From positions 17,744 to 70,898 of the forward strand of contig OMOG01000165.1 of assembly GCA_900290305.1 (NCBI GenBank): a stretch of DNA of 53,155 nucleotides. The letters run 5' to 3'. The notes under the pieces are model-generated. The model made no database searches, was not told the DNA's origin, and worked only from the letters and a program-made list of their open reading frames with translations. The position numbers and the translations under genes were made by a program. This stretch comes from Candidatus Sulfopaludibacter sp. SbA4. Its GTDB lineage: Bacteria; Acidobacteriota; Terriglobia; Bryobacterales; Bryobacteraceae. This document shows, one piece after another, positions 12,902 to 46,632 of this stretch (position 1 is the first letter of the stretch; each line of letters opens with the position of its first letter).

Positions 12902-13616
12902 GGCGACATTGTTTGCCGGAACATCCGGTTTCGCATACGCGGCCTGGAAGCCGGGCTTCTATCCGGCCAAGCTCCCGGCCAACCAGTTTCTGAAACACTA
13001 CGCCGAGCACCTGAACTGCGTGGAGATCAACTACACCTTTCGGCGGCTGCCTTCGGCCGGCACGCTGCAGAATTGGGTGGAGGCCACGCGCCCGGGCTTC
13101 GTGTTCGCGGTGAAGGCCAACCAGCGGATCACCCACATCCTGCGGTTGAAGAACGCCGGGGAGGCCACCGAGCTTTTCCTGAAGATGATCGATCCGCTGC
13201 GCACCTCGCGCCGGCTGGGCCCGATTCTGTTCCAGCTCCCGCCGCAGTTGAAATGCGACGTGGGGCTGCTCACCAGTTACCTCGACCTGCTGCCCAAGGG
13301 GATGCGGTATGCGTTCGAGTTCCGGCACCAGTCGTGGCTGGCGGAAGAGGTCTACAGCGTCCTGCGCGAGCGTAACGTGTCGCTGTGCGTGGCGGAATCG
13401 GAGAAGCTGGAGGTGCCCGAAGTGATCACCGCCGACTTCGTCTACTACCGCCTGCGGAAGGCCGAGTACACGGAGCAGGACGTGGACGCGATCGCCGCGC
13501 GCGCCAGGGATCTGCTGGCCGCCGGGCGGGATTTGTACCTGATGTTCAAGCACGAAGAGACTCCCGAAGGGGCGCTGAATGCGGAGCTGCTGCTGCGGAA
13601 GGCGGGGAGTGCATAG
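12900..13616 (+). CDS. DUF72 (YecE-like) TIM-barrel protein
   Basis: A 238-residue full-length member of the DUF72/YecE family, a TIM-barrel fold of unknown biochemical role. Family features are the start (LFAGTSGFAYAAWKPGFYP), CVEINYTFRRLP, GFVFAVKANQRITH, GPILFQLPPQLK, YAFEFRHQSWL and the C-terminal YLMFKHEETPEGALNA. The last 126 codons plus 15 bp after the stop are repeated almost perfectly at 21246-21638. The gene starts back-to-back with the minus-strand membrane-protein gene and is followed after 64 bp by the helicase of the putative defence module. Confidence 0.92.
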   Translation: MATLFAGTSGFAYAAWKPGFYPAKLPANQFLKHYAEHLNCVEINYTFRRLPSAGTLQNWVEATRPGFVFAVKANQRITHILRLKNAGEATELFLKMIDPLRTSRRLGPILFQLPPQLKCDVGLLTSYLDLLPKGMRYAFEFRHQSWLAEEVYSVLRERNVSLCVAESEKLEVPEVITADFVYYRLRKAEYTEQDVDAIAARARDLLAAGRDLYLMFKHEETPEGALNAELLLRKAGSA

Positions 13617-21245: not shown

Positions 21246-21623
21246 CCGCCGCAGTTGAAATGCGACGTGGGGCTGCTTACCCGTTACCTCGACCTGCTGC
21301 CGAAGGGGATGCGGTATGCGTTCGAGTTCCGGCACCAGTCGTGGCTGGCGGAGGAGGTCTACAGCGTCCTGCGCGAACGCAACGTGTCGCTGTGCGTGGC
21401 GGAATCGGAGAAGCTGGAGGTGCCCGAAGTGATCACCGCCGACTTCGTCTACTACCGCCTGCGGAAGGCCGAGTACACGGAGCAGGACGTGGACGCGATC
21501 GCCGCGCGCGCCAGGGATCTGCTGGCCGCCGGGCGGGATTTGTACCTGATGTTCAAGCACGAAGAGACTCCCGAAGGGGCGCTGAATGCGGAGCTGCTGC
21601 TGCGGAAAGCGGGGAGTGCATAG
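21246..21623 (+). pseudogene. DUF72 3'-end fragment
   Basis: The last 126 codons of the DUF72 gene, copied from or sharing ancestry with 13239-13616. Similarity continues to 21638, past the stop codon. It lacks the first half of the TIM barrel and has no start signal of its own, so it should not make a working protein. The open frame remains intact and only about 2% diverged, so the duplication is young or is kept uniform by gene conversion. Confidence 0.9.
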
Positions 21624-22288: not shown

Positions 22289-23149
22289 TTTGCTCTTGCG
22301 GGCGCGCTTCTTGGGCGATTCTTCGAGCGGCAGTTCTTCCTGATCGGCCGAGGCCGAGGCCACGGCGGTGGCGGCCTGGGCGGGCTTGCGCTTTTCGGCG
22401 AGGCTGCGCTTCAGCGCTTCCATGATGTCGATCACGGGGGCGATGTGCTCGGCGGGCGCCTCCACCACCTTCTTGCCTTCGATCTTGGCCTCGATCATCT
22501 TCTGCAGGTTGTCGCGGTATTGGTCGTGGTACTTCTGCGGCTCGAACTCGGCTTCGAGCGAGGAGATCAGCATCTTGGCCATGGCGAGCTCTTTGTCCTT
22601 CACCAGGCTGGTGTCGGTGCGGAACTCATCCACCTGCCGGATCTCGTCCTGATAGTACATGGTGTGCGAGAGAATTCCCTTGGCGCCAGGCCGGAGCACG
22701 ATGATGTGCTCGCGATTGTGCATCGCCACCTTGGCCAGGGCGTAGTATTTGGATTCGCGCAGGGCCTGGAACAGCAGCGCGTAGGGCTTCTCGCCGCCCT
22801 CGTCGGGGGCCACGTAGTAGGAGCTTTCCAGGTAGATCGGGTCCACCTGGTCGGCCGCCACGAATTCGAGGATCTCCATTACCTTCGCGGTCTTGGGCGC
22901 GACCTTCTTGATATCCTCGTCGTCGATCTCCACGTAGTGGTCCTTCTCGTACTCGTAGCCTTTGACGAGCTCGCTGCGGGGGACCGCCTTGTCCTCCGCC
23001 TGACAGAAAATGACCTGCTTGATGCGGGAGTGGTCGGCTTTATGCAGGAGGTTGAAGCTGACGGTTTCGCTGCGCGCGGCGCTGAAGAGCCGAATGGGGA
23101 ACGAAACCAAGCCAAAAGTGAGATGGCCTTTCCAGACGCTCGATGCCAT
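22280..23149 (-). CDS. ku: Ku protein, non-homologous end joining
   Basis: A 289-residue bacterial Ku homodimer subunit, which encircles broken DNA ends and recruits LigD. The conserved Ku beta-barrel core is seen (MASSVWKGHLTFGLVSFPIR, then SFNLLHKADHSRIKQ, KGYEYEKDHYVEIDDEDI and YYQDEIRQVDEF). The C-terminal tail (about 240-289) is rich in Lys, Glu and Ala and ends PKKRARKSKVG, as in Ku proteins that bind DNA with a basic tail. It is divergent from ligD, with 82 bp between starts that must hold both promoters. The stop codon is formed within a palindromic repeat shared with a ku fragment at 21050-21240. Confidence 0.96.
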   Translation of the reverse strand: MASSVWKGHLTFGLVSFPIRLFSAARSETVSFNLLHKADHSRIKQVIFCQAEDKAVPRSELVKGYEYEKDHYVEIDDEDIKKVAPKTAKVMEILEFVAADQVDPIYLESSYYVAPDEGGEKPYALLFQALRESKYYALAKVAMHNREHIIVLRPGAKGILSHTMYYQDEIRQVDEFRTDTSLVKDKELAMAKMLISSLEAEFEPQKYHDQYRDNLQKMIEAKIEGKKVVEAPAEHIAPVIDIMEALKRSLAEKRKPAQAATAVASASADQEELPLEESPKKRARKSKVG

Positions 23150-23231
23150 AGGTAAACCTCAAAAAAACAGTGCGGCTTCCAAGATACTACAAACCTGGAT
23201 AAGATGTAAATGGAAGGATGCAAAGGGACTT

Positions 23232-26015
23232 ATGCCTCTGGAAGAGTATGCCGCGAAACGCCGTTTCGAGAACACGCCCGAGCCTCCTCCCGGCACGCAT
23301 ACCAGCAAGCCCGGGGCCAACTATTTCTGTGTGCAGCGGCACGATGCCACGCGGCTGCACTACGACTTTCGCCTCGAGATCGATGGCGTGCTGAAATCGT
23401 GGGCGGTGCCGAAGGGGCCGACGCTCGATCCGGGGCTGAAACATTTTGCGGCACACGTGGAGGATCACCCCATCGAGTACGGCGGCTTCGAGGGCACGAT
23501 CCCCAAGGGAAATTACGGCGCGGGCAGCGTGATGCTGTGGGACCGCGGCACCTTCGAGTTGCTGGGCGATGCCTCGGGCGCGGAGCAGATTGCGCGCGGC
23601 GATTTGAAATTCCGGCTGCATGGCGAAAAGCTGAAGGGCGATTTCGCGCTGGTCCACATGAAAGGGCGCGGCAAAGGGAACGACTGGCTGATCATCAAGA
23701 AGCGCGACGAGTTCGCAGTGCCCGGCTGGGACGTGGAGAGCCACGCGTACAGCGTGCTCTCGGGACGGACGCAGGAGGAGATTGCGAGGAACCTGCCGGC
23801 TCGCGAGACCAAGCGAGAGACGGCGGGCGCGGCGGACCGCACGTGGGAGAGCCGTCCGGCGAAGCGGGCGGGAAAAGCGGGGCCAGCGACAACACAGGCC
23901 GGGAGGCCTGTGCCACCAGAACGGGCGGGAGAAGCGGGAGAGGAGGCAACACAGGCAAGAATGCCTGTGCTGCCAAAAAAAAAAAAAAAAAAAACGGTTG
24001 ATGCCGGGGGCGTGAAGGGCGCGCGGCGGGCGGAGATGCCTGCGTCCATCGAGCCGATGATGGCGAGCTTGGCGGACCGGCCTCCGCGCGGCGACGAGTG
24101 GCTGTTCGAGGTGAAGTGGGATGGCGTCCGCGCCATCGCGTTCGTGGAGCACGAAGAAGTGCGGCTGCAATCGCGCAGCGGGCTGCGATGCGAACGGCAG
24201 TATCCGGAGCTGGCGGTGATCCATCACCAGATTGCGGCGGACACGGCGGTGCTGGATGGCGAGATCGCGGTGCTCGACCCGAAGGGCGTTTCGCGCTTTC
24301 ACCTCATCCAGCCGCGGATAGCGATCAGCGATCCGAACACCATCGCCCACCTGGTGCGATCGACTCCCGTGGTGTACTTCATCTTCGACCTGCTGTACCT
24401 GGATGGCTACGATCTGCGCGACGTGCCGCTGGCCACGCGAAAGGAGCTTTTGGAGACGGTGGTCACGCCGGGCGCGGTGATGCGGATCTCGGCGGCGTTC
24501 CCGGGGGCTGGAACGGAGATGCTGGAGGCGGCGAAGGAGAACAGCCTTGAAGGCATCCTCGCCAAGCACGCTTCGAGCCGCTATGAATCCAAGCGGAGCC
24601 GCGACTGGCTGAAGATCAAGATTGTCGGCGAGCAGGAGTTTGTGATCGGCGGATTCACCGAGCCGCAGGGCGACCGCGACTATTTCGGCGCGCTGGTGCT
24701 GGGAGTGTACGACGAGGGCAAGCTGCGGTGGGTGGGCAACGTGGGAACGGGATTCGACCAGAAACTGCTGGCGAGCCTCCACGCGCGGCTCGAGCCGCTG
24801 ATCATGGAGCGGTGCCCGTTCGCCGAGCGTCCCAAGCCCGACAAGGGGATGACGTGGGTGAGGCCGGAGCTGGTCTGCCAGGTGAAGTATGCTAACTGGA
24901 CGCAGGACAACCGGCTGCGCGCGCCGGTGTTTCTGGGGCTGCGCGACGATGTGGGGTCACTGCAGGTTGTACGGGAGATAGCCGTACAAGAGGAAGGACC
25001 GCTCGCTGACGGGGTGCCCTCTGGGCCCGGCTCCGATGCGAGGCGCGCGCACGCGGAGGGCTCGGCGGTGGTGGCGGCAGATTTGTTGCCGGAGAGCGCC
25101 AAGGAAGCGACCCTCGCCATTAACGGCCGCACGCTGAAATTCACGAACCTGAAGAAGGTCTACTATCCGGACGAAGGCTACACCAAGCGCGAAGTTCTGA
25201 ACTACTACGATGGCGTGGCGGGGCTGATCCTGCCTCATTTGAAGGATCGGCCGCTTTCGCTGAAGCGGTATCCCAACGGCATCAAGGAGGAGTTTTTCTT
25301 CCAGAAGGATACGCCGGAGAGCTACCCGGATTGGTTGCGCACCGAGTCGATCGACTCGGACCATACGCAGAAGCCCATCCGCTACGTGTTTGCGGAGGAC
25401 CGCGCCAGCCTGCTGTACCTGGTGAACCTGGGCTGCATCGACCACAACCCGTGGATGAGCCGCTCGCAGAGCCTGGACCATCCGGACTTTGTGCTGATCG
25501 ACCTGGACCCGCAGGAGTGCCCGTTCGATTTGATCGTGGACGCGGCGCTGATGGTGAAGCGCGTGCTGGACCAGATCGGATTGCGGGGCCATCCCAAGAC
25601 GACGGGCGGCGATGGGATGCACATTTATATTCCGATCGAACCGGTCTATACGTACGAAGAGGCGCGGCAGTTCGCCGACCTGATCTCGCGGCTGGTGATT
25701 CACGAGAAGCCGGAGATGTTCACGACGCCGCGGAGCGTGTCGAAGCGGCAAAGGAACCGCGTGTACTTCGATTACCTGCAGATCGGGAAATCGAAGACTA
25801 TTGCGGCGCCGTACGTGCTGCGGGCTTATGGCCGAGCTCCGGTGGCCACGCCGCTCGAATGGAGCGAGGTGAAGCGGGGATTACATCCGAGTCAGTTCAA
25901 TATTACGAATGCGCGGGCGAGGTTCGCGGAGAAGGGAGATTTGTTCGCGGGTGTGCTGAAGGCGCCGCAGCGGCTGGAGGAGGCGCTGGAGAAGATGGAG
26001 AAGCTGTTCCGGTAG
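23232..26015 (+). CDS. ligD: Multidomain DNA ligase D (PE-ligase-POL)
   Basis: A 927-residue LigD that seals double-strand breaks with Ku. Domain order is phosphoesterase (about 40-190: DATRLHYDFRLEIDGVLKSW, HPIEYGGFEGTIPKGNYG), ATP-dependent ligase (about 270-570: motif EVKWDGVR with the adenylated Lys about 295, DGEIAV, LKIKIVGEQEFV) and archaeo-eukaryotic primase/polymerase (about 630-927: FVLIDLDPQE, HPKTTGGDGMHIYIP). ATG 23232 has AAGGGA 4-5 bp upstream. The linker between phosphoesterase and ligase is swollen by two palindromic repeats read in frame (TQAGRPVPP and TQARMPVLP) and by a 20-A run encoding PKKKKKK. The second linker (about 24985-25050) also contains repeat-like sequence. Slippage at the A-run could separate the domains. 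Confidence 0.95.
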   Translation: MPLEEYAAKRRFENTPEPPPGTHTSKPGANYFCVQRHDATRLHYDFRLEIDGVLKSWAVPKGPTLDPGLKHFAAHVEDHPIEYGGFEGTIPKGNYGAGSVMLWDRGTFELLGDASGAEQIARGDLKFRLHGEKLKGDFALVHMKGRGKGNDWLIIKKRDEFAVPGWDVESHAYSVLSGRTQEEIARNLPARETKRETAGAADRTWESRPAKRAGKAGPATTQAGRPVPPERAGEAGEEATQARMPVLPKKKKKKTVDAGGVKGARRAEMPASIEPMMASLADRPPRGDEWLFEVKWDGVRAIAFVEHEEVRLQSRSGLRCERQYPELAVIHHQIAADTAVLDGEIAVLDPKGVSRFHLIQPRIAISDPNTIAHLVRSTPVVYFIFDLLYLDGYDLRDVPLATRKELLETVVTPGAVMRISAAFPGAGTEMLEAAKENSLEGILAKHASSRYESKRSRDWLKIKIVGEQEFVIGGFTEPQGDRDYFGALVLGVYDEGKLRWVGNVGTGFDQKLLASLHARLEPLIMERCPFAERPKPDKGMTWVRPELVCQVKYANWTQDNRLRAPVFLGLRDDVGSLQVVREIAVQEEGPLADGVPSGPGSDARRAHAEGSAVVAADLLPESAKEATLAINGRTLKFTNLKKVYYPDEGYTKREVLNYYDGVAGLILPHLKDRPLSLKRYPNGIKEEFFFQKDTPESYPDWLRTESIDSDHTQKPIRYVFAEDRASLLYLVNLGCIDHNPWMSRSQSLDHPDFVLIDLDPQECPFDLIVDAALMVKRVLDQIGLRGHPKTTGGDGMHIYIPIEPVYTYEEARQFADLISRLVIHEKPEMFTTPRSVSKRQRNRVYFDYLQIGKSKTIAAPYVLRAYGRAPVATPLEWSEVKRGLHPSQFNITNARARFAEKGDLFAGVLKAPQRLEEALEKMEKLFR
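23892..23917. repeat. In-frame palindromic repeat in ligD linker (1)
   Basis: ACACAGGCCGGGAGGCCTGT followed by GCCACC. It is a hairpin read as TQAGRPVPP between the phosphoesterase and ligase domains, and is related to the elements at 21050 and 22265. Confidence 0.85.
23949..23974. repeat. In-frame palindromic repeat in ligD linker (2)
   Basis: ACACAGGCAAGAATGCCTGT followed by GCTGCC, read as TQARMPVLP. Near-identical elements are at 33192-33217 (same frame, TQAGMPVLP) and at 43171-43199 (opposite orientation). Confidence 0.9.
23975..23994 (+). repeat. Homopolymer A20 in ligD
   Basis: Twenty consecutive A residues directly after the second palindrome, coding for a Lys run. The reading frame is open at this length. 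Gain or loss of one base would stop synthesis after the phosphoesterase domain. Confidence 0.95.
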
Positions 26016-32002: not shown

Positions 32003-32422
32003 ATGAGCTTCACCGTATTTCTTGGCAACCTCCCGACTTGGGTCACCGCTGATGACATCAAACAATGGCTCACCGCCGAGGGCTTGGTGGCCGACGCCGT
32101 TAAAGTGATCCGTAACCATGAAACGCAGGAATCCAAGGGCTTCGCATTTGTCGAAGCACCGACCGCCGACGAAATGCAGGCGATTATTCGCCGCTTCGAT
32201 CGCGCACCGCTGGAGGACCGGCTTCTGCGGGCCAACCCGGCACAACCCCCCAAAGGAAAAGACGCGCCGCGCACGCCGCCGGCACAGCAGCAACAGGCAG
32301 TCGCAGCTCCCAATGCCACTCGCAATATCCAGCCCCGTCCCGAGCGCCGAAAGCGCGGCGGAAGAGATCGCGAGCACACGCCCCGCAGCGCCTTCGCCAC
32401 CGAACTGGCCAAGGTCCTGTAA
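32003..32422 (+). CDS. RRM-domain RNA-binding protein
   Basis: A 139-residue protein with one N-terminal RNA recognition motif (about 1-82). RNP2 is seen as VFLGNL and RNP1 as KGFAFVEA. The RRM binds single-stranded RNA through the aromatic residues of these motifs. The C-terminal 55 residues are a Pro/Gln/Arg-rich, disordered-looking tail (PPAQQQQAVA, RRKRGGRDRE). Small RRM proteins of this shape occur in cyanobacteria and acidobacteria, often linked to stress or cold. The gene stands alone with its own promoter. Confidence 0.92.
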   Translation: MSFTVFLGNLPTWVTADDIKQWLTAEGLVADAVKVIRNHETQESKGFAFVEAPTADEMQAIIRRFDRAPLEDRLLRANPAQPPKGKDAPRTPPAQQQQAVAAPNATRNIQPRPERRKRGGRDREHTPRSAFATELAKVL

Positions 32423-32567
32423 GGCCGGACGCGCCGCGCCCCCGGATGCGGCCGCAGCGGTTCCCTATCAGTTCCACACCTGTGAACGCAGGGCACATTG
32501 GTCCTCAATCTATTCCATTTATTTTCAGTTATTTGCAATTGGCAGCGTGCGTGCTTTTTCGCACCGC

Positions 32568-33851
32568 ATGAAATATGCCTGGCTTGGCTGCCTGCTGTTT
32601 GGCGGCCTGCTCTTCGGGGGAACGCAGGATTCCGAGTTCAATGTCAACACGCGCTACACGGTGGAGAACGTGGTGGTGTCGGGTGACGGTTGGACCACCG
32701 ACGTCGGGGCCGGCGGCGCGAGCGACGAGCGGATCAGCTCGGGATTGCGGAAGGATATTGCGGCACTCATTGGGGAGAAGTTGAATCCGACGGTACTCGA
32801 CGAAATGGCCAGGCGGCTGCGGAAGGAATTTCACGCGCGCACGGTGGAGCAGCGGGTGCTGCGCGGCAAGAGCCCGGACTACGTGCAGGTGGTGTTCGAA
32901 GTGAAACTGCGGCCCACGCGCTTTGACATATCGGTTCCCAAATTTCTCTACAGCGGCAAACAGGGCTGGAGCGGGGCGGTGGAAGGGACCGCCACGGTGA
33001 AGCAGAACGGCTTCACGCTGGGGCTGGTGAGCGACGGCGATGAACTGGTGGAGCGCTACGCGGGAATCGTGGCGCGATACGAGAATACGCGGCTGGGCAC
33101 GGACCGGGTGCACTTCCGCTTCGCGTTCGAGAGCTACCACGAGCAGTGGAACAGCAACACGGTGGATCGGGCGGACGCGACACAAGAAAGAACACAGGCA
33201 GGAATGCCTGTGCTACCCTACCGCGCGCGCCAGAATTTCGAGCCCGAGGTGACGTTTGTGCTGTCCAGGCCCCTGACCCTGAGCGTGGGGACCAGCTTCC
33301 AGAGATTTCAAGAACAGTTTCCGGCCGCGCAGACCGAGTCCGCTAACGCCTTTGTTACAACTCTGCGCTATCATCGGCGGCTGGAGGATTCGGAAAACCA
33401 GCAAGACCTGGACGCAGGCTACAACCTGCGCGCGGCCACCAGAATTTTGGGCAGCGACTTCGCGTACGCCCGGCACCGCTGGGAACTGCGCTACATGCTG
33501 ACTCACGGCAAGAGCGTGGTGATCGACGACTTGACCAGCGGGATGATCACGGGCCGGGCTCCGCTGTTCGAGCGTTTTGTACTAGGCAACAGCAGTACTC
33601 TGCGGGGATGGAACAAGTACGAACTGGATCCGCTGGGCGGAAACCGCATGGTGCATAACACCGTCGAGTATCGTTACGGCGTATTTCAGCTCTTTTACGA
33701 CAGCGGCGCGATTTGGGACGACGGTGAAGCCGCGGTGGTAAGGCATTCGGCCGGGGTGGGGCTGCGGCAGGGCAATTTCTCGCTGGCCGTGGCGTTTCCC
33801 ATTCGCGAGGGGCATATCGACCCGATCTTCATGGTGGGCATGAACTATTGA
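32568..33851 (+). CDS. BamA/TamA-like outer-membrane surface antigen
   Basis: A 427-residue protein with a signal peptide (MKYAWLGCLLFGGLLFGG), one POTRA-like N-terminal domain (about 25-125) and an Omp85/surface-antigen (D15) beta barrel ending in VGMNY. The barrel has the Omp85 loop-6 motif variant LRGW (about 345-348). It should sit in the outer membrane and move or insert proteins or lipids. It has fewer POTRA domains than BamA and is shorter, so it is a secondary Omp85 family member. At about residues 209-217 a palindromic repeat is read in frame (TQAGMPVLP), probably in an exposed loop. The ATG at 32568 is chosen for the signal peptide; the longer frame upstream is not coding. Confidence 0.8.
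   Translation: MKYAWLGCLLFGGLLFGGTQDSEFNVNTRYTVENVVVSGDGWTTDVGAGGASDERISSGLRKDIAALIGEKLNPTVLDEMARRLRKEFHARTVEQRVLRGKSPDYVQVVFEVKLRPTRFDISVPKFLYSGKQGWSGAVEGTATVKQNGFTLGLVSDGDELVERYAGIVARYENTRLGTDRVHFRFAFESYHEQWNSNTVDRADATQERTQAGMPVLPYRARQNFEPEVTFVLSRPLTLSVGTSFQRFQEQFPAAQTESANAFVTTLRYHRRLEDSENQQDLDAGYNLRAATRILGSDFAYARHRWELRYMLTHGKSVVIDDLTSGMITGRAPLFERFVLGNSSTLRGWNKYELDPLGGNRMVHNTVEYRYGVFQLFYDSGAIWDDGEAAVVRHSAGVGLRQGNFSLAVAFPIREGHIDPIFMVGMNY
33192..33217. repeat. In-frame palindromic repeat in Omp85-like gene
   Basis: ACACAGGCAGGAATGCCTGT followed by GCTACC. It is almost identical to 23949-23974 in ligD and is read in the same frame. Confidence 0.9.
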
Positions 33852-39442: not shown

Positions 39443-41061
39443 ACCCTCGCTACTTCTTTATACCCCTCCTTCTCGGCGCCGCGCTGGCCCAGCAGCCCGC
39501 CGGACCCATCCGCTTCGAGGAGGTCTCAACCCAGGCCGGCATCCAATTCACCCACAGTTTCGGCGCGGAGAAACTCGGCTCCCTGCTGGAAAGCACCGGC
39601 GGAGGCGCTGTCTGGTTCGACTACAATAACGACGGCCTCCTGGATCTCTTCGTGACCAGCGGCAAGCCCCTCGGCCCCGGCATCCATCCGTATCCGTTGC
39701 GCAAGCCGCCCCAAACCCCGCCTTCCAACCACCTCTTCCGCAACGACGGCAAGGGCCATTTCAGCGACGTCACCCAGCAGGCCCACGTCGCGGGCGATCT
39801 CTTCAGCATGGGCGCCATCGCCGCCGACTACGATAACGACGGCCACACCGACCTGCTCGTCACCGGTTACGGGCGCGCCATCCTCTACCGCAACAAAGGC
39901 GACGGCACCTTCGAAGACGTCAGCGAGAAGGCCGGCCTCAAGGTCCCCGGCTGGTCCATCGGTGCGGCCTGGCTGGATTACGATCGCGATGGCTGCCTGG
40001 ACCTGTTCATCGGCCGCTACGTCAAGTTCGACCCCGAATACCGCTCCTACTACGCCGCCGACAACTATCCCGGTCCGCTGGATTACGAGCCCCAAACAAA
40101 CCTCCTGTTTCACAACAACTGCAACGGCACCTTCACCGACGTCAGCGAGAAGGCCGGCATCTCGAAGTTCAAGAGCCGCGCCATGGGCGTCACCGCCGCT
40201 GATTTCGATCTTGACGGCTATCCCGACATCTTCGTCGCCAACGACAAGACGGAGAACTTCCTGTTCCACAACGAGAAGAACGGAACCTTCAAGGAGATCG
40301 CCGTGCCCGCCGGGGTGGCATACGGGCAGAACGGCGAAAACACGTCGGCCATGGGACCGGTGTTCGCGGATCTGGATGGCGATGGCCGGCCGGACCTGTG
40401 GGTGTCGGATTCGAAGTTCAACCGCCTCATGAAGAACACCGGCAAGCTGCAGTTCGAGGATGTGACCGAACGCGCCGGCATCTCGCAACTCGCCGCGCAG
40501 TACGTGAGCTGGGGCACCGGCGCGCACGATTTCGATAACGACGGCCGCGACGACATCTTCATCGTCCATGGCGGGCTCATTCACCTCATTCCGCAGGAGC
40601 ACTCGGTCTTCCGCAACGCCGGTGCCATGAGGTTCGAAGATGTGTCGCGCGCGGCCGGGCCGTTTTTCGAGGTGAAGAGCGTGGGTCGCGGCGCCGCGTT
40701 CGCCGATTACGACAACGACGGCAAGATCGACGCGTTCATCGTGAACCTGGGCGGTCCGGCCTTCCTGCTGCACAATACTTCGCAGAACGCGAATCACTGG
40801 ATTTCCGTGAAGCTGGTGGGGCACAAGTCCAACCGCGATGGCATAGGAGCGCAGGTGGAGGTGGTCGCGGGCGGCCTCCGGCAGCAGCACGAGCGGGTGG
40901 CCGGATCGGGCTATCTCTCGGCGGACGATCCGCGCGTGCATTTCGGGTTGGGAACGGCGGCCAAGGTCGACAGACTGACGGTGACGTGGCCCGGCGGCGG
41001 CAAGCAGGTGATCGAGAACCCGCCGGTGGATCGCGTGATCACCGTTGAGGAGAAGCCATGA
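39439..41061 (+). CDS. FG-GAP/VCBS repeat protein with ASPIC/UnbV domain
   Basis: A 540-residue secreted protein. After a signal peptide (MNPRYFFIPLLLGAALAQ) there are at least six FG-GAP/VCBS calcium-binding blades (DYNNDGLLDLF, DYDNDGHTDLL, DYDRDGCLDLFIG, DFDLDGYPDIF, DLDGDGRPDLW, DYDNDGKIDAF). An ASPIC/UnbV domain is at the C-terminus (NHWISVKLVGHKSNRDGIGA, HFGLG, LTVTWPGG). This CRTAC1-like layout is very common in acidobacteria and planctomycetes and is thought to bind partners or polysaccharide outside the cell. The ATG overlaps the previous stop (ATGA), and its own stop overlaps an ATG at 41058, so it is central to the operon. Confidence 0.92.
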   Translation: MNPRYFFIPLLLGAALAQQPAGPIRFEEVSTQAGIQFTHSFGAEKLGSLLESTGGGAVWFDYNNDGLLDLFVTSGKPLGPGIHPYPLRKPPQTPPSNHLFRNDGKGHFSDVTQQAHVAGDLFSMGAIAADYDNDGHTDLLVTGYGRAILYRNKGDGTFEDVSEKAGLKVPGWSIGAAWLDYDRDGCLDLFIGRYVKFDPEYRSYYAADNYPGPLDYEPQTNLLFHNNCNGTFTDVSEKAGISKFKSRAMGVTAADFDLDGYPDIFVANDKTENFLFHNEKNGTFKEIAVPAGVAYGQNGENTSAMGPVFADLDGDGRPDLWVSDSKFNRLMKNTGKLQFEDVTERAGISQLAAQYVSWGTGAHDFDNDGRDDIFIVHGGLIHLIPQEHSVFRNAGAMRFEDVSRAAGPFFEVKSVGRGAAFADYDNDGKIDAFIVNLGGPAFLLHNTSQNANHWISVKLVGHKSNRDGIGAQVEVVAGGLRQQHERVAGSGYLSADDPRVHFGLGTAAKVDRLTVTWPGGGKQVIENPPVDRVITVEEKP

Positions 41062-41076
41062 GAAGGGCCCTGGCCC

Positions 41077-41122
41077 GTGGCGCACGCTCTCAGCGTGCCG
41101 CGTCGACATTCGTGTCGACGCC
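41077..41122. repeat. Half copy of the long palindromic repeat
   Basis: GTGGCGCACGCTCTCAGCGT, then GCCGCGTCGACATTCGTGTC and GACGCC. The two adjacent hairpins have the same layout as the left half of the elements at 1663 and 44722. It lies at the very start of the propeller/cytochrome gene. Confidence 0.75.
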
Positions 41123-43095
41123 TTCTTGCCCCCAACCCACTCGCGCTTTGGCGAGCACTCGCGCTTTGGCCCACTCGCGCTTTGGCGAGCACTCGCGCTT
41201 TGGCGAGCACTCGCGCTTTGGCGAGCCTAACCCCTACCCCCAACCCCCTTTTCCTGCTTGTCGCCCTCGCCCTCACCGCTCTCGCCGCGGACCGTCCGAC
41301 GCCACCGCGCTTTCCCTCCCCCATCGAGCTGGCATTTTCCAAGGACGGCGCCCGCCTCTTCGCGCTCTGCGAGGGCACCGACGAAGTGGTCGCGTACGAT
41401 GCCCGCTCCGGCTCGATCGTCCGGCGGATTCCGGTAGGGCGTGTGCCCAAGGGCCTGGCGCTTTCTCCCGATGGAAAGCACCTCTACGTGGCGAACTCCT
41501 GGAGCGATTCGGTCTCCGAGATCGATACCGCGGCGCTCGAAGCAGTGCGCAGCCTGCCCGCGGGGTTCGAGCCGAACTCGGTAGTCACCGACCTCGCCGG
41601 CCGTTTCCTCTACGTGGCCAACCGCATCAGCAACGATGTATCGGTGGTCGACCTGGTGACGGGCGCCGAAGTCAAACGCCTGGTGGCGGGCCGCGGCGCC
41701 GCCTATCTCGCTCTCTCTCCCGATGGCGCCAGCATCTATTGCACCCACATCTACCCGAACCCAGGCCTACACCGCACGCCGCCCGAATCCGAAATCACGG
41801 TCATCGACACCGCGCGCCAGGTCGTCAAGGACCGCTATCGCCTGCCCAACGCCGCGGGCGTGTTCCATGTGGCGTTGTCCGCCGACGGACGCCTCGGCAT
41901 GGCGGCGCAACTGCGTCCCAAGAACCTGGTTCCCCTGGCGCACGTGGAGCACGGCTGGGTCTTCGGCAATTCCATTTCGGTGTTCGGTGAAGACGTCGGG
42001 AACGCCGTCGGCGAGGTCGTGCAGATCCCCATCGACGAGCTGGATCGCTACTTCACCCCACCCTTCGCCATCGTGCTGGCGCCCGACAAGACCGCCGCCT
42101 ACATCTCCACCACGGGGTCCGACAGCGTGACCGTGATCGATATTCCGAAGCTGCTGGAGTGCATCCGCTCTGCAACTCCGGCGGAACGGCGGACCATGGC
42201 CAACGACCTCTCGGCTTCGGCCAACTACGTGGTGACCCGCATCCCCGTCGGATCGGCGCCCAAGGGGATGGTTCTCTCTCCCGATGGCAAGCGGCTGTAC
42301 GTGGCGAATCGCACCGACGACACGATCTCCGTGATCGACACCGCGTCCCGCAAGGTGACGGCCACGCTTTCGCTCGAAGGGCCGGCAGCCCCGACTGCCG
42401 AGCGCCGCGGCGAGCGTCTCTTCTTCAGCGCGCGCTTCGCCTTCCAAGGTCATTTCGGATGCGCCAATTGCCACCTCGAATCGACCTTCGACGGCCTGCA
42501 GTGGGACCTGGAGCCGGACGGTTTCGGCAAGGACATCGTGGACAACCGCCTCCTCGAAGACGTCGCCGAGACCGCGCCATTCAAGTGGAATGGATCGAAT
42601 CCCAATCTCGAAACCGAGTGCGGCCCGCGCACCGAGAAATTCTTCTATCGCTCCGAAAGCTACGACGGCTGGCAACTGGCCGACCTGGTGGCTTACATCA
42701 AAGCGATGCCGCTCCGCCCCAACCGCTACCGCCTGGCGTCCGGCGAACTGACGCCCGCCCAGGAGCGCGGCAAGGCGATCTTCGAGCGCACCCGCACCAG
42801 GAGCGGCGCGCCCATTCCGGAATCGAACCAGTGCGCGGTGTGCCACTCCGGGCGGCACTACACCAACCAGCAATTGGCGGACGTGGGCAGCGGCAAGCCC
42901 ACCGACCGGTCTCCGCTGATCGACGTGCCGCAGTTGACCAATGTGTTTCTGACCGCGCCGTATTTGCACGATGGCTCGGCGCGAACGCTCGAAGAGATCT
43001 GGACCGTGTTCAATCCCAAGGACACGCACGGGGTGACCAACGACCTCCAGAAGGACGAGCTCAACGATCTGATCGAGTATCTGAAAACGCTATGA
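41077..43095 (+). CDS. YVTN/YncE beta-propeller fused to dihaem cytochrome c peroxidase-like domain
   Basis: About 672 residues. A seven-blade YVTN propeller (about 75-450: SPDGKHLYVANSWSDSVSEI, SPDGKRLYVANRTDDTISVI) is followed by a MauG/cytochrome-c-peroxidase-like part with two haem motifs, CANCH and CAVCH. A periplasmic electron-transfer or sensing role is inferred. The native start is probably ATG 41058, which overlaps the upstream stop as ATGA like other genes here. It is now out of frame, because the second of five 18-bp tandem repeats (41138-41225) has lost 2 bp. With that unit restored, 41058 reads straight into the signal peptide (PNPLFLLVALALTALAAD). As it stands, translation must begin at GTG 41077, inside repeat sequence. 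Confidence 0.82.
   Translation: MAHALSVPRRHSCRRLLAPNPLALWRALALWPTRALASTRALASTRALASLTPTPNPLFLLVALALTALAADRPTPPRFPSPIELAFSKDGARLFALCEGTDEVVAYDARSGSIVRRIPVGRVPKGLALSPDGKHLYVANSWSDSVSEIDTAALEAVRSLPAGFEPNSVVTDLAGRFLYVANRISNDVSVVDLVTGAEVKRLVAGRGAAYLALSPDGASIYCTHIYPNPGLHRTPPESEITVIDTARQVVKDRYRLPNAAGVFHVALSADGRLGMAAQLRPKNLVPLAHVEHGWVFGNSISVFGEDVGNAVGEVVQIPIDELDRYFTPPFAIVLAPDKTAAYISTTGSDSVTVIDIPKLLECIRSATPAERRTMANDLSASANYVVTRIPVGSAPKGMVLSPDGKRLYVANRTDDTISVIDTASRKVTATLSLEGPAAPTAERRGERLFFSARFAFQGHFGCANCHLESTFDGLQWDLEPDGFGKDIVDNRLLEDVAETAPFKWNGSNPNLETECGPRTEKFFYRSESYDGWQLADLVAYIKAMPLRPNRYRLASGELTPAQERGKAIFERTRTRSGAPIPESNQCAVCHSGRHYTNQQLADVGSGKPTDRSPLIDVPQLTNVFLTAPYLHDGSARTLEEIWTVFNPKDTHGVTNDLQKDELNDLIEYLKTL
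41138..41225 (+). repeat. Five tandem 18-bp repeats at a gene start
   Basis: Unit CACTCGCGCTTTGGCGAG, each itself a small hairpin (CTCGC/GCGAG). Units are at 41138, 41156, 41172, 41190 and 41208. Unit 2 is 16 bp (ends GGCC instead of GGCGAG), giving 88 bp in total and changing the reading frame. Confidence 0.93.
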
Positions 43096-44222
43096 AACGC
43101 ATCTTCCCACTCCGTGGGGCAGGCCATCGCTTTTTGTGGCCTGCCTTGTCTGGAAGTTTGGCCCGTCTTGGTGACACAGGCATTCCTGCCTGTGTTGCCT
43201 TTCTGTTTTTGGCCTCAACTGCCCCCGCCGCAACGCCGGACATGCCCCGCTTCCGCTGGGAGAATTTCACCAAGGCCGACGGCTTGCCGGACGACCACGT
43301 CTTCAACGTCTGCGTGGATGGCGACCGCGTCTGGGCGGCTACGGAGAACGGGCTCGGCTTGTACCAGAAGGGCAAGTGGAAGGTCTACCGGCCGCAGGAT
43401 GGACTCGCTCACCGCGCGGTCCTGGGAGTGGCCGTCGATCCGCGCACCGGAGATGTCTGGGTCGCAACCATGGGCGGATTGAGCCGCTTCTCGGCGGGGC
43501 GCTTCGACAATTTCACGCAGCTCTCGAGCGGGCTTTCGAACGACGTGGTGTACGGCGTCGGGGTGGGAGGCGACTACGTGTGGACCGCGACCGCAGCGGG
43601 CGCCAGCCGCTTCGACACGCGCACCGGCCAGTGGGCCCTCTTCAACGAGCGCAACACCCCCATGTACGAGATCTGGACGTACAACGTGAGCGTCGGCAAG
43701 GACAAAGTCTATTACGCGGTCTGGGGCGGCGGCGTGCTCGAGTACGACGTGAAGACCGAGCGCTGGAAGGACTACAACGACCCGGACGGCGAAACCGAGA
43801 TGGTGGTCCTCAGGGACCAGGGGCTCATCCACGAAATCACTACATCCGTGAGCTATGCGGAGAAGGACAAGATTCTGTGGGTGGCCACTTACTTCGGAGC
43901 GAGCCGCTATGACGGGCGCAACTGGAAGAACTTCCTCGAGAAGGATAGCGGGCTGCCCAGCAACTTCCTCAACCAGGTGAAAGCGTTGGACGGAAGCCGC
44001 GCCTGGTTCTCCACCGACAAAGGGCTGGCCTATCTCGATGGCGAGAATTGGGCCGTCTATCGCCCCTCGGAAATGCTGGTCCGTGACGCGGCAGGCAAGG
44101 TTACGAGGATCGCGACGGACACTTCGCCCGCGCACCAGTATGTGCTGGCGGTGGATTTTCAGGGAGACGATATCTGGGTGGCGACGGCCAAGGGCCTGAG
44201 CCATGGGATCAGAATCAAATGA
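43092..44222 (+). CDS. Two-component-regulator-type beta-propeller protein, secreted
   Basis: A 376-residue protein made of 'two-component regulator propeller' repeats (about 60-376: GDRVWAATENGLGLYQKGKW, GDVWVATMGGLSRF, DYVWTATAAGASRF, ILWVATYFGASRYDGRNW, DDIWVATAKGLS). In hybrid sensors such propellers bind sugars; here no kinase is attached. The N-terminus has a hydrophobic stretch (ACVAFLFLASTAPAA) interrupted upstream by two palindromic repeats (43114-43145 and 43171-43199), which make the signal peptide unusually long. The ATG overlaps the previous stop (ATGA), and the stop overlaps the next gene's ATG. It is probably exported if the long leader is tolerated. Confidence 0.85.
   Translation: MKRIFPLRGAGHRFLWPALSGSLARLGDTGIPACVAFLFLASTAPAATPDMPRFRWENFTKADGLPDDHVFNVCVDGDRVWAATENGLGLYQKGKWKVYRPQDGLAHRAVLGVAVDPRTGDVWVATMGGLSRFSAGRFDNFTQLSSGLSNDVVYGVGVGGDYVWTATAAGASRFDTRTGQWALFNERNTPMYEIWTYNVSVGKDKVYYAVWGGGVLEYDVKTERWKDYNDPDGETEMVVLRDQGLIHEITTSVSYAEKDKILWVATYFGASRYDGRNWKNFLEKDSGLPSNFLNQVKALDGSRAWFSTDKGLAYLDGENWAVYRPSEMLVRDAAGKVTRIATDTSPAHQYVLAVDFQGDDIWVATAKGLSHGIRIK
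43114..43145. repeat. In-frame palindromic repeat in propeller signal region (1)
   Basis: GTGGGGCAGGCCATCGCTTT followed by TTGTGGCCTGCC. It is a hairpin of the GGCAGGC family in the reverse orientation relative to 26121. Confidence 0.75.
43171..43199. repeat. In-frame palindromic repeat in propeller signal region (2)
   Basis: GTGACACAGGCATTCCTGCC followed by TGTGTTGCC. It is the reverse complement of the elements at 23949 and 33192. Confidence 0.88.
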
Positions 44223-44685: not shown

Positions 44686-46632
44686 ATGGGATTGCATACT
44701 GTAGCCCGCATTCCGCCAGCCGATGTGGCGCAGGCACTCCTGCCTGCCGTGTCGAGACTCGTCTCGACACGTGTTCGCGCAGTTCCGAAGCCAAGCGTCG
44801 GCATGAGTGCCGACGCGGCAGGCACGAGTGCCTGCGCCACGCAACTGTTGCTTGTCCTGCTCTCCGCCGCCATCCTCCACGCTCAAACCTGCTCCTGCGG
44901 AGCCAACCCGCCCGGACCCCCACCGAACCGCGAGCAGCGCCCCTACGCCAACACGCCCGAAGACATGCGGCCGTTTTCCAAATTCACCGTCCCATACTAC
45001 GAGAACTACGACAAGCTCGTGGAATACAACGGAGCGGCCCGCGACGTCCCCACCGTGAAGCCCGCAGACGTGGACGAGGTGCGGATCGGCTTCCTCGGCC
45101 CGGTGGAGAACCACCCCGACCAGCGCCTCGGCCAAGCCATGCTCCACGGCGCGCAGCTTGCCATCGAAGAGGCCAACGCCCGCGGCGCCTACGGCGGCAA
45201 GCCCTTCAAGCTGATGGTGCACAATGACCAGGCGGTCTGGGGCGCATCCAGCAACGAGATGGTCAAAATGGCCTACGACGACAAGGTCTGGGCCATGCTG
45301 GGCAGCATCAGCAGCGATTCCACCCACATCGCCTTGCGCGTGTCGCTGAAGGCCGAGGTGCCCATCGTCAACAGCGCGTCCACCGATCCCACCATTCCGG
45401 AAACCATCATCCCCTGGTACTTCACCACCATCCAGGACGATCGCGTGCAAGGCTACACGCTGGCGCGCCGGATCTACACCGAGGTGGGCCTGCACAAGGT
45501 CGCGCTGCTGCGAGCGAACGACCGCTACGGCCGCTTCGGAGTGCTCAAATTCAAGGACGCCTCGCGGCGGCTGGGCCATCCGGTGGTCATCGAACAGAAG
45601 TACCAGCCCGGCGATTCGGATTTCCGCCGCGAATTGCGCATCATCAACGAATCGGACGCCGACGGCATCGTGATCTGGGGCGACGCGGCGCCGGCCGGTA
45701 CGATCCTGAAGCAGATGCGCGATATGGGGATGAAGCAGCGCGTCTTCGGCAGCTTCCGCGTGCTGGGCGACGACCTGCTGGCCAACGCCGGAGACTCGGC
45801 GGAAGGGCTGGAGATCGTGTTTCCCTTCGACCCGACACGCGACGACCCGGGCTGGCTGGCCTTCAACCAACGCTTCGAGAAGCGCTTCGGCGCCCACCCC
45901 GACGTGTTCGCGTCGCTCGCCTACGACACCATGAACATCCTGGTGCAGGCGATCTGCCGCGCAGGGTTGAACCGCGGCAGAATCCGCGACGTCCTCACCG
46001 GCCTGGAGAATTACAAAGGCGTCACGGGCGACATGGTCTTCGACCCCAACTGCAAGAACATGGTGCCCATGTACCTGGCGACGGTCCACGGCGGCAAGTA
46101 CCAGTTCCGCCGCTATCCGATGCAGGCGCCCTACGCCAAAGTGGGGGAAGGGAGCGTGAAGTACAACGGTCCGCCGCTGCCTGACGCCGCTGCCGGCCCG
46201 GTGCGCATCGGCATCTTCGGTCCGGATGCCGAGGCGGTGGTCGCCCGCATTTCGCCGCTGCTGGCGCCGTATCAAGGGCGTTACTCGCTGGTCGCGGTGC
46301 CGTCGGATGTGCCGTGGGGCCAGGCTTCCACCGGCCTGGTCAACCTGATCTACGATCAGGAAGCCTTGGGGCTGATCGCGACCGGCCGCAACGCGAGCCA
46401 CCTGGCGGAGCAACTCGCCGCCAAATCGTTTGTGCCGTTGATTGCCGTCACGGCGGACCATGACGTGACCTCGGTCAATATCCCCTGGGTGATTCGTCTG
46501 CCCGCCGACACGCCGATCGAGGACGCGCTCGGCCGCTTTCTCGCCGCCGCCGAAAAATCGGGACCCAATCGCGGACGGTTGCGGGAAGTGCTGGTGGGGC
46601 AGCCGGCGGCCGCATCCCCGGCGCCCAGGTGA
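44686..46632 (+). CDS. ABC transporter substrate-binding protein (Peripla_BP_6 type), orphan
   Basis: A 648-residue branched-chain-amino-acid-type binding protein. The first binding fold is at about 120-480 (VRIGFLGPVENHPDQRLGQA, GGKPFKLMVHNDQAVWG, ALLRANDRYGRFGVLKFKD, YDTMNILVQAICRAGL). A second, shorter fold at the C-terminus (VRIGIFGPDAEAVV, LIATGRNASHLAEQLAAK, VPLIAVTADHD) makes it longer than usual. Similar proteins occur with PQQ-dependent alcohol dehydrogenase systems, but no dehydrogenase is here. No permease or ATPase is adjacent. The signal-like core (LLLVLLSAAILHA, then QTCSCG) is preceded by a long palindromic repeat (44722-44840) read in frame. The start at ATG 44686 is 3 bp after the RidA-like stop. 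Confidence 0.85.
   Translation: MGLHTVARIPPADVAQALLPAVSRLVSTRVRAVPKPSVGMSADAAGTSACATQLLLVLLSAAILHAQTCSCGANPPGPPPNREQRPYANTPEDMRPFSKFTVPYYENYDKLVEYNGAARDVPTVKPADVDEVRIGFLGPVENHPDQRLGQAMLHGAQLAIEEANARGAYGGKPFKLMVHNDQAVWGASSNEMVKMAYDDKVWAMLGSISSDSTHIALRVSLKAEVPIVNSASTDPTIPETIIPWYFTTIQDDRVQGYTLARRIYTEVGLHKVALLRANDRYGRFGVLKFKDASRRLGHPVVIEQKYQPGDSDFRRELRIINESDADGIVIWGDAAPAGTILKQMRDMGMKQRVFGSFRVLGDDLLANAGDSAEGLEIVFPFDPTRDDPGWLAFNQRFEKRFGAHPDVFASLAYDTMNILVQAICRAGLNRGRIRDVLTGLENYKGVTGDMVFDPNCKNMVPMYLATVHGGKYQFRRYPMQAPYAKVGEGSVKYNGPPLPDAAAGPVRIGIFGPDAEAVVARISPLLAPYQGRYSLVAVPSDVPWGQASTGLVNLIYDQEALGLIATGRNASHLAEQLAAKSFVPLIAVTADHDVTSVNIPWVIRLPADTPIEDALGRFLAAAEKSGPNRGRLREVLVGQPAAASPAPR
44722..44840. repeat. 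Long nested palindromic repeat, copy B (in binding-protein gene)
   Basis: 119 bp closely matching 1663-1790. The outer arms are GCGCAGGCACTCCTGCCTGC and GCAGGCACGAGTGCCTGCGC, with the same two inner hairpins. Again it lies between a start codon and the hydrophobic core of a signal peptide, and is read in the same frame (ADVAQAL...SACAT). Confidence 0.92.

Follow-up and report, generated by a model that had tools for sequence, protein, structure and literature searches.

The window, which is the whole stretch of 53,155 bp analysed here, belongs to the genome of a soil acidobacterium of the Ca. Solibacter/Bryobacteraceae group (10.1 Mb, 790 contigs, 84% complete). Downstream of an FG-GAP/ASPIC gene lies a gene whose body encodes a YNCE/lactonase-like β-propeller followed by a di-haem cytochrome-type domain. 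The nearest named relative is Candidatus Solibacter sp. GL140_5, with a body 86% identical. The signal-peptide region of this gene carries, between the native start codon (ATG 41058) and the hydrophobic core, an insert of ~170 bp composed of two dispersed repeats. The edges of the insert are good to within a few bases; a multiple alignment of the N-terminal DNA has too many gaps for exact placement. The features of this gene, and of similar inserts in other genes of the window, are as follows.

41058–41060, + strand: native start codon ATG, overlapping the upstream stop TGA (41059–41061) and out of frame with the body; insert-free orthologues start here.
41077–41122, + strand: REP-type element (family A) with two hairpins, beginning with GTGG, a tag that supplies the GTG from which the body frame is open; identified from genome copies and DNA folding.
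41122–41247, + strand: second dispersed element (family F), consisting of a C-rich flank, five 18-bp units and another C-rich flank; identified from genome copies.
41136–41203, + strand: perfect 34-bp tandem duplication (41136–41169 identical to 41170–41203), taken as the source of the apparent 16-bp unit and of the frame shift.
41248–41289, + strand: hydrophobic core and cleavage region of the native signal peptide, LFLLVALALTALAA, from orthologue comparison.
41290–43095, + strand: gene body, β-propeller then cytochrome-type domain, from Pfam and orthologues.
43113–43200, + strand: REP-like palindromes, in frame in the next gene, within the n-region of its signal peptide; from repeat search, DNA folding and orthologues.
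44719–44841, + strand: inverted REP pair (BIME-like) in the n-region of the third gene, which encodes a periplasmic binding protein, in frame; DNA fold z = −9.7.
1660–1797, + strand: BIME nearly identical to the pair at 44719–44841, in frame in the n-region of a secreted-protein gene starting near 1627; from repeat search.

The window also contains a 300-bp direct repeat of 98% identity, with copies 8 kb apart (13239–13538 and 21246–21545).

As described in the first-pass annotation, ATG 41058 overlaps the upstream stop codon as ATGA and is out of frame with the body. It lies 19 nt from GTG 41077 and is thus one base off the body frame. The ATG is well placed, with the sequence GAGGAG 5 nt upstream of it. 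The body frame opens at GTG 41077. A dispersed repeat begins with this codon, which may rescue the body after the loss of frame; the AGAAGG upstream of this GTG is weaker than the GAGGAG that precedes the ATG.

Clean and inserted versions of the signal peptide

ATG 41058 had been proposed as the native start, and orthologues bear this out. G035 (79% identical), G028, G019, G001 and several others start directly behind the same upstream stop; their signal peptides are short, of the type MRWAALWLAFCAVSRA or VRRALTFAAVTAAVA, and contain no insert. None of the orthologues starts naturally at the GTG with the same sequence; the frame was disturbed later. The window retains MRRAL at the start position of the orthologues, with the core located ~170 bp further on. 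The stretch between the two is an insert.

Other orthologues carry inserts of their own. In the nearest relative, L145 (86%), a repeat of another type enlarges the n-region, and the L145 genome contains 45 matches to it. The n-region of L148 (76%) contains a family-A-like element in reverse orientation (four matches), and that of G036/L181 (63–64%) contains an inverted REP pair. Through all three inserts, the start that follows the upstream stop keeps the body frame. Since the n-region of L145 is also enlarged, the ancestral n-region of the window/L145 pair is uncertain.

These orthologues bear on the alternative that the insert is an untranslated leader, with translation starting at a TTG in the last units (e.g. 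41219) to give a signal peptide of normal length. TTG codons are indeed in frame in units 3–5, and such an arrangement would match intragenic GTAG/CGTC REPs, some of which lie at annotated N-termini and many of which may be untranslated (PMC3733652). However, the TTG starts have little Shine-Dalgarno support, and three other insert-bearing orthologues keep the native start in frame through the insert. We regard an untranslated leader as possible but doubtful.

The neighboring genes show the same pattern. REP inserts are present in the next gene of the window and in G020/L150, while in 13 of 14 orthologues the signal peptide is short and free of inserts. The inverted REP pair of the third gene is absent from the three orthologues compared. 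We read REP insertion into these genes from presence or absence relative to orthologues, a sequence comparison by which repeat insertion into signal-peptide n-regions is recurrent.

Repeat families and RAYT genes

The family A element of the insert comprises 46 bases beginning exactly at GTG 41077 (DNA fold z = −5.1). A 61-base query finds at least 40 matches in its own genome, and 12 of 60 further genomes searched contain relatives of the element. The 18-bp unit of the second element, CACTCGCGCTTTGGCGAG, has 19 exact copies in the genome and none in a reversed control. Its copies elsewhere are mostly single, often intergenic, and lie between C-rich flanks (CCCCAACC-unit-CCTAACCCC) like those at the locus. 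The reverse strand of window positions 41226–41248 reads GGGGGTTGGGGGTAGGGGTTAGG, a possible G-quadruplex, and the same C-rich flank is found at other copies of the 18-bp unit.

Altogether, seven families of dispersed repeats were defined, with counts taken from a 1.11-Mb sample of the 10.1-Mb genome; they account for 145 hits in this sample, the majority beside genes rather than inside them. Families A, B, C and E are high-copy palindromes of 20–50 bp that lie mostly between genes. Their 5′ tag is generally GTGG, with GTAG in some copies, including those beside the RAYT genes L120 and L122. Families A/B, C and E accompany four of the seven Y1 transposase genes, which carry a YI(E/D)xNPV motif. 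Family E lies on both sides of the RAYT genes L119 and L121, and A/B-like elements lie on both sides of L120. L122 has a family C REP at its 5′ end and another in frame inside the ORF (L122:1349–1372, G000:C289). Judged by these sequence features, most of the repeat families, seen in part beside the seven Y1 loci, are REPs. No copy of family F, which contributes the 18-bp element, lies close to any of these seven loci, and we therefore call it only a dispersed repeat.

Two copies lie in other coding contexts. A family C REP is located at window 33193–33216 within the ORF at 32118–33851, ~358 codons past its first start. The other is a family A REP at L279:5353–5381 (G000:C450), which seems to contribute coding sequence to a signal peptide's hydrophobic core (MSTCGARSQRAAS-RLVSTLVLISATALAQ).

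REPs precede signal-peptide cores in 10 of 105 elements, compared with a mean of 4.4 under random placement (sd 1.9, maximum of 100 sets 11). Internal membrane segments or antisense frames account for several of these 10, and targeting of REPs to signal peptides is not claimed. The strict test for a signal-peptide core also missed real cases (43171; L142 19456). It is conceivable, if improbable, that REPs in these acidobacteria act as portable modules of translation start and n-region, favored by or targeted to signal-peptide DNA, that would repeatedly remodel how secreted proteins start and are marked for export by bringing a GTG and arginine-rich codons (e.g. VAHALSVPRRHSCRR) before hydrophobic cores.

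The 34-bp duplication and the reading frame

The five copies of the 18-bp unit, one of them irregular, occupy 41138–41225 (~89 bp) between ATG 41058 and the signal-peptide core, where 5 matches were found allowing up to three mismatches (0.12 expected by chance). This array folds no better than shuffled sequences (DNA fold z = 0.5), and we do not assign it a role as a hairpin. The first-pass annotation had described five units, one of 16 bp, and had attributed the frame shift to the loss of 2 bp. There are indeed four perfect 18-bp units and an irregular one, but the latter is not merely 2 bp short: the change from GGCGAGCACTCG to GGCCCACTCG involves a 2-bp deletion and one substitution. A 34-bp tandem duplication, in contrast, reproduces the whole array with zero substitutions, and TRF also gives a 34-bp period in it. 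When one 34-bp copy is removed, exactly three perfect units remain and ATG 41058 comes into frame.

Restoring the missing 2 bp also brings the ATG into the body frame, as had been calculated, and the frame outcome of the two schemes is identical. The duplication is favored because it is one event rather than two and leaves no mismatch, the 2-bp loss being less economical in its need for an extra substitution. A recent lesion in unit 2 (2-bp loss plus substitution), with the history of the insert otherwise as proposed below, is thus unlikely. The single duplication also agrees with an insertion that was initially in frame, as the inserts of the relatives are.

Tandem repeats are prone to assembly error, and the contig is metagenome-derived and part of a fragmented genome. 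Common read lengths, however, exceed the 89-bp array, and the rest of the insert is independently backed by repeat copies elsewhere in the genome; an assembly error is quite unlikely as the explanation.

We consider it very probable that a repeat insert of ~170 bp in the signal-peptide n-region was followed by a 34-bp duplication that displaced the frame of the native ATG. Two dispersed repeats, the REP double hairpin and the C-rich element with the 18-bp unit, would have landed between ATG 41058 and the core. The insert would have been tolerated because the site is a signal-peptide n-region, and it probably preserved the frame at first, as in the relatives. A later 34-bp tandem duplication within the 18-bp array would then have pushed ATG 41058 out of frame, leaving the body to be read from the REP-supplied GTG 41077 or from TTG codons in the units. 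We infer this order of events, and translation from GTG 41077.

Repeat-driven on/off switching had been suggested for this gene, and the array does present a perfect 34-bp direct repeat among five units near a start codon. Six of ten unit-to-unit deletions (16, 34, 52 or 70 bp) alter which start is in frame, by putting ATG 41058 in frame; after the other four (18 or 36 bp), the frame of GTG 41077 is still that of the body. Both starts are closed in none of the ten single-deletion alleles, and array changes would therefore exchange start codons rather than turn the gene on and off. Unit-number change does not switch the start frame as it would in a contingency locus: the unit is 18 bp long, so its gain or loss leaves the frame unchanged, and changes of 18 and 36 bp are neutral. 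An array change would swap the well-placed ATG with the GTG and its weaker upstream sequence. Moreover, once lost, the irregular junction is not readily restored, as this takes a new rare event; the irregular array therefore looks more like a one-way relic than a switch. A phase-variable contingency locus is highly unlikely here, and we found no support for on/off switching.

A run of 20 A residues at window 23975–23994, unusual in a GC-rich genome, encodes lysines in frame in the ORF at 23010–26015. It lies just before a DNA ligase-like stretch and adjoins two family C REPs (23893–23973). This run is a better slippage candidate than the 18-bp array at 41138–41225.

Relation to known repeat systems

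The account given here replaces a story of phase variation with a traceable one, in which mobile repeats enter tolerant N-terminal coding DNA and the same genes are hit repeatedly in related genera. Clean, inserted, and inserted and frame-shifted versions form a natural series for asking how long an n-region can grow and how start codons are replaced. A further warning is that the N-termini set by gene callers may be wrong in such genomes.

Phase-variable simple-sequence contingency loci resemble this locus in having a tandem repeat next to the start codon. The locus differs in that the 18-bp units are frame-neutral and no tested allele loses both starts.

High-copy DNA hairpins are known from a relative, Solibacter usitatus Ellin6076, in which ~600 structures associated with class 3 TnpA have been reported (PMC6006769); many short repeats have also been described in S. 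usitatus (PMC3174227). The TnpA-associated structures have the 5′ foot CnGA, whereas the elements here carry GTGG or GTAG and lie beside Y1 transposases with the YI(E/D)xNPV motif.

Conserved or exported proteins can include stretches read from small palindromic repeats. Rickettsia palindromic elements (RPE) are translated in conserved proteins, and the signal peptide of Yersinia YPO1552 is partly made by a MITE (reviewed in PMC2229807). In the two genes that follow the one at 41058, the elements are in frame and absent from orthologues, and may be translated; in the gene at 41058, the element would share the body frame only if translation began at GTG 41077 or beyond. The cases here involve other repeat families and another phylum, and the gene retains its native start and hydrophobic core, with the repeat between them.

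There is also a likeness in form to the GTAG/CGTC REPs of PMC3733652, which are short, high-copy palindromes tagged with GT(A/G)G, with RAYT genes flanked by the same repeats and some copies within ORFs or at N-termini. The elements described here differ in their recurrence: one operon has them in the signal-peptide n-regions of several genes, and they return there in several related genera, as comparison with insert-free orthologues shows. One of them has put its own GTG before the body frame. Among the papers searched, there was no direct match for REPs in signal peptides of acidobacteria. What is new here is that repeats have entered the stretch between the start codon and the hydrophobic core more than once, and that one REP provides an in-frame GTG.
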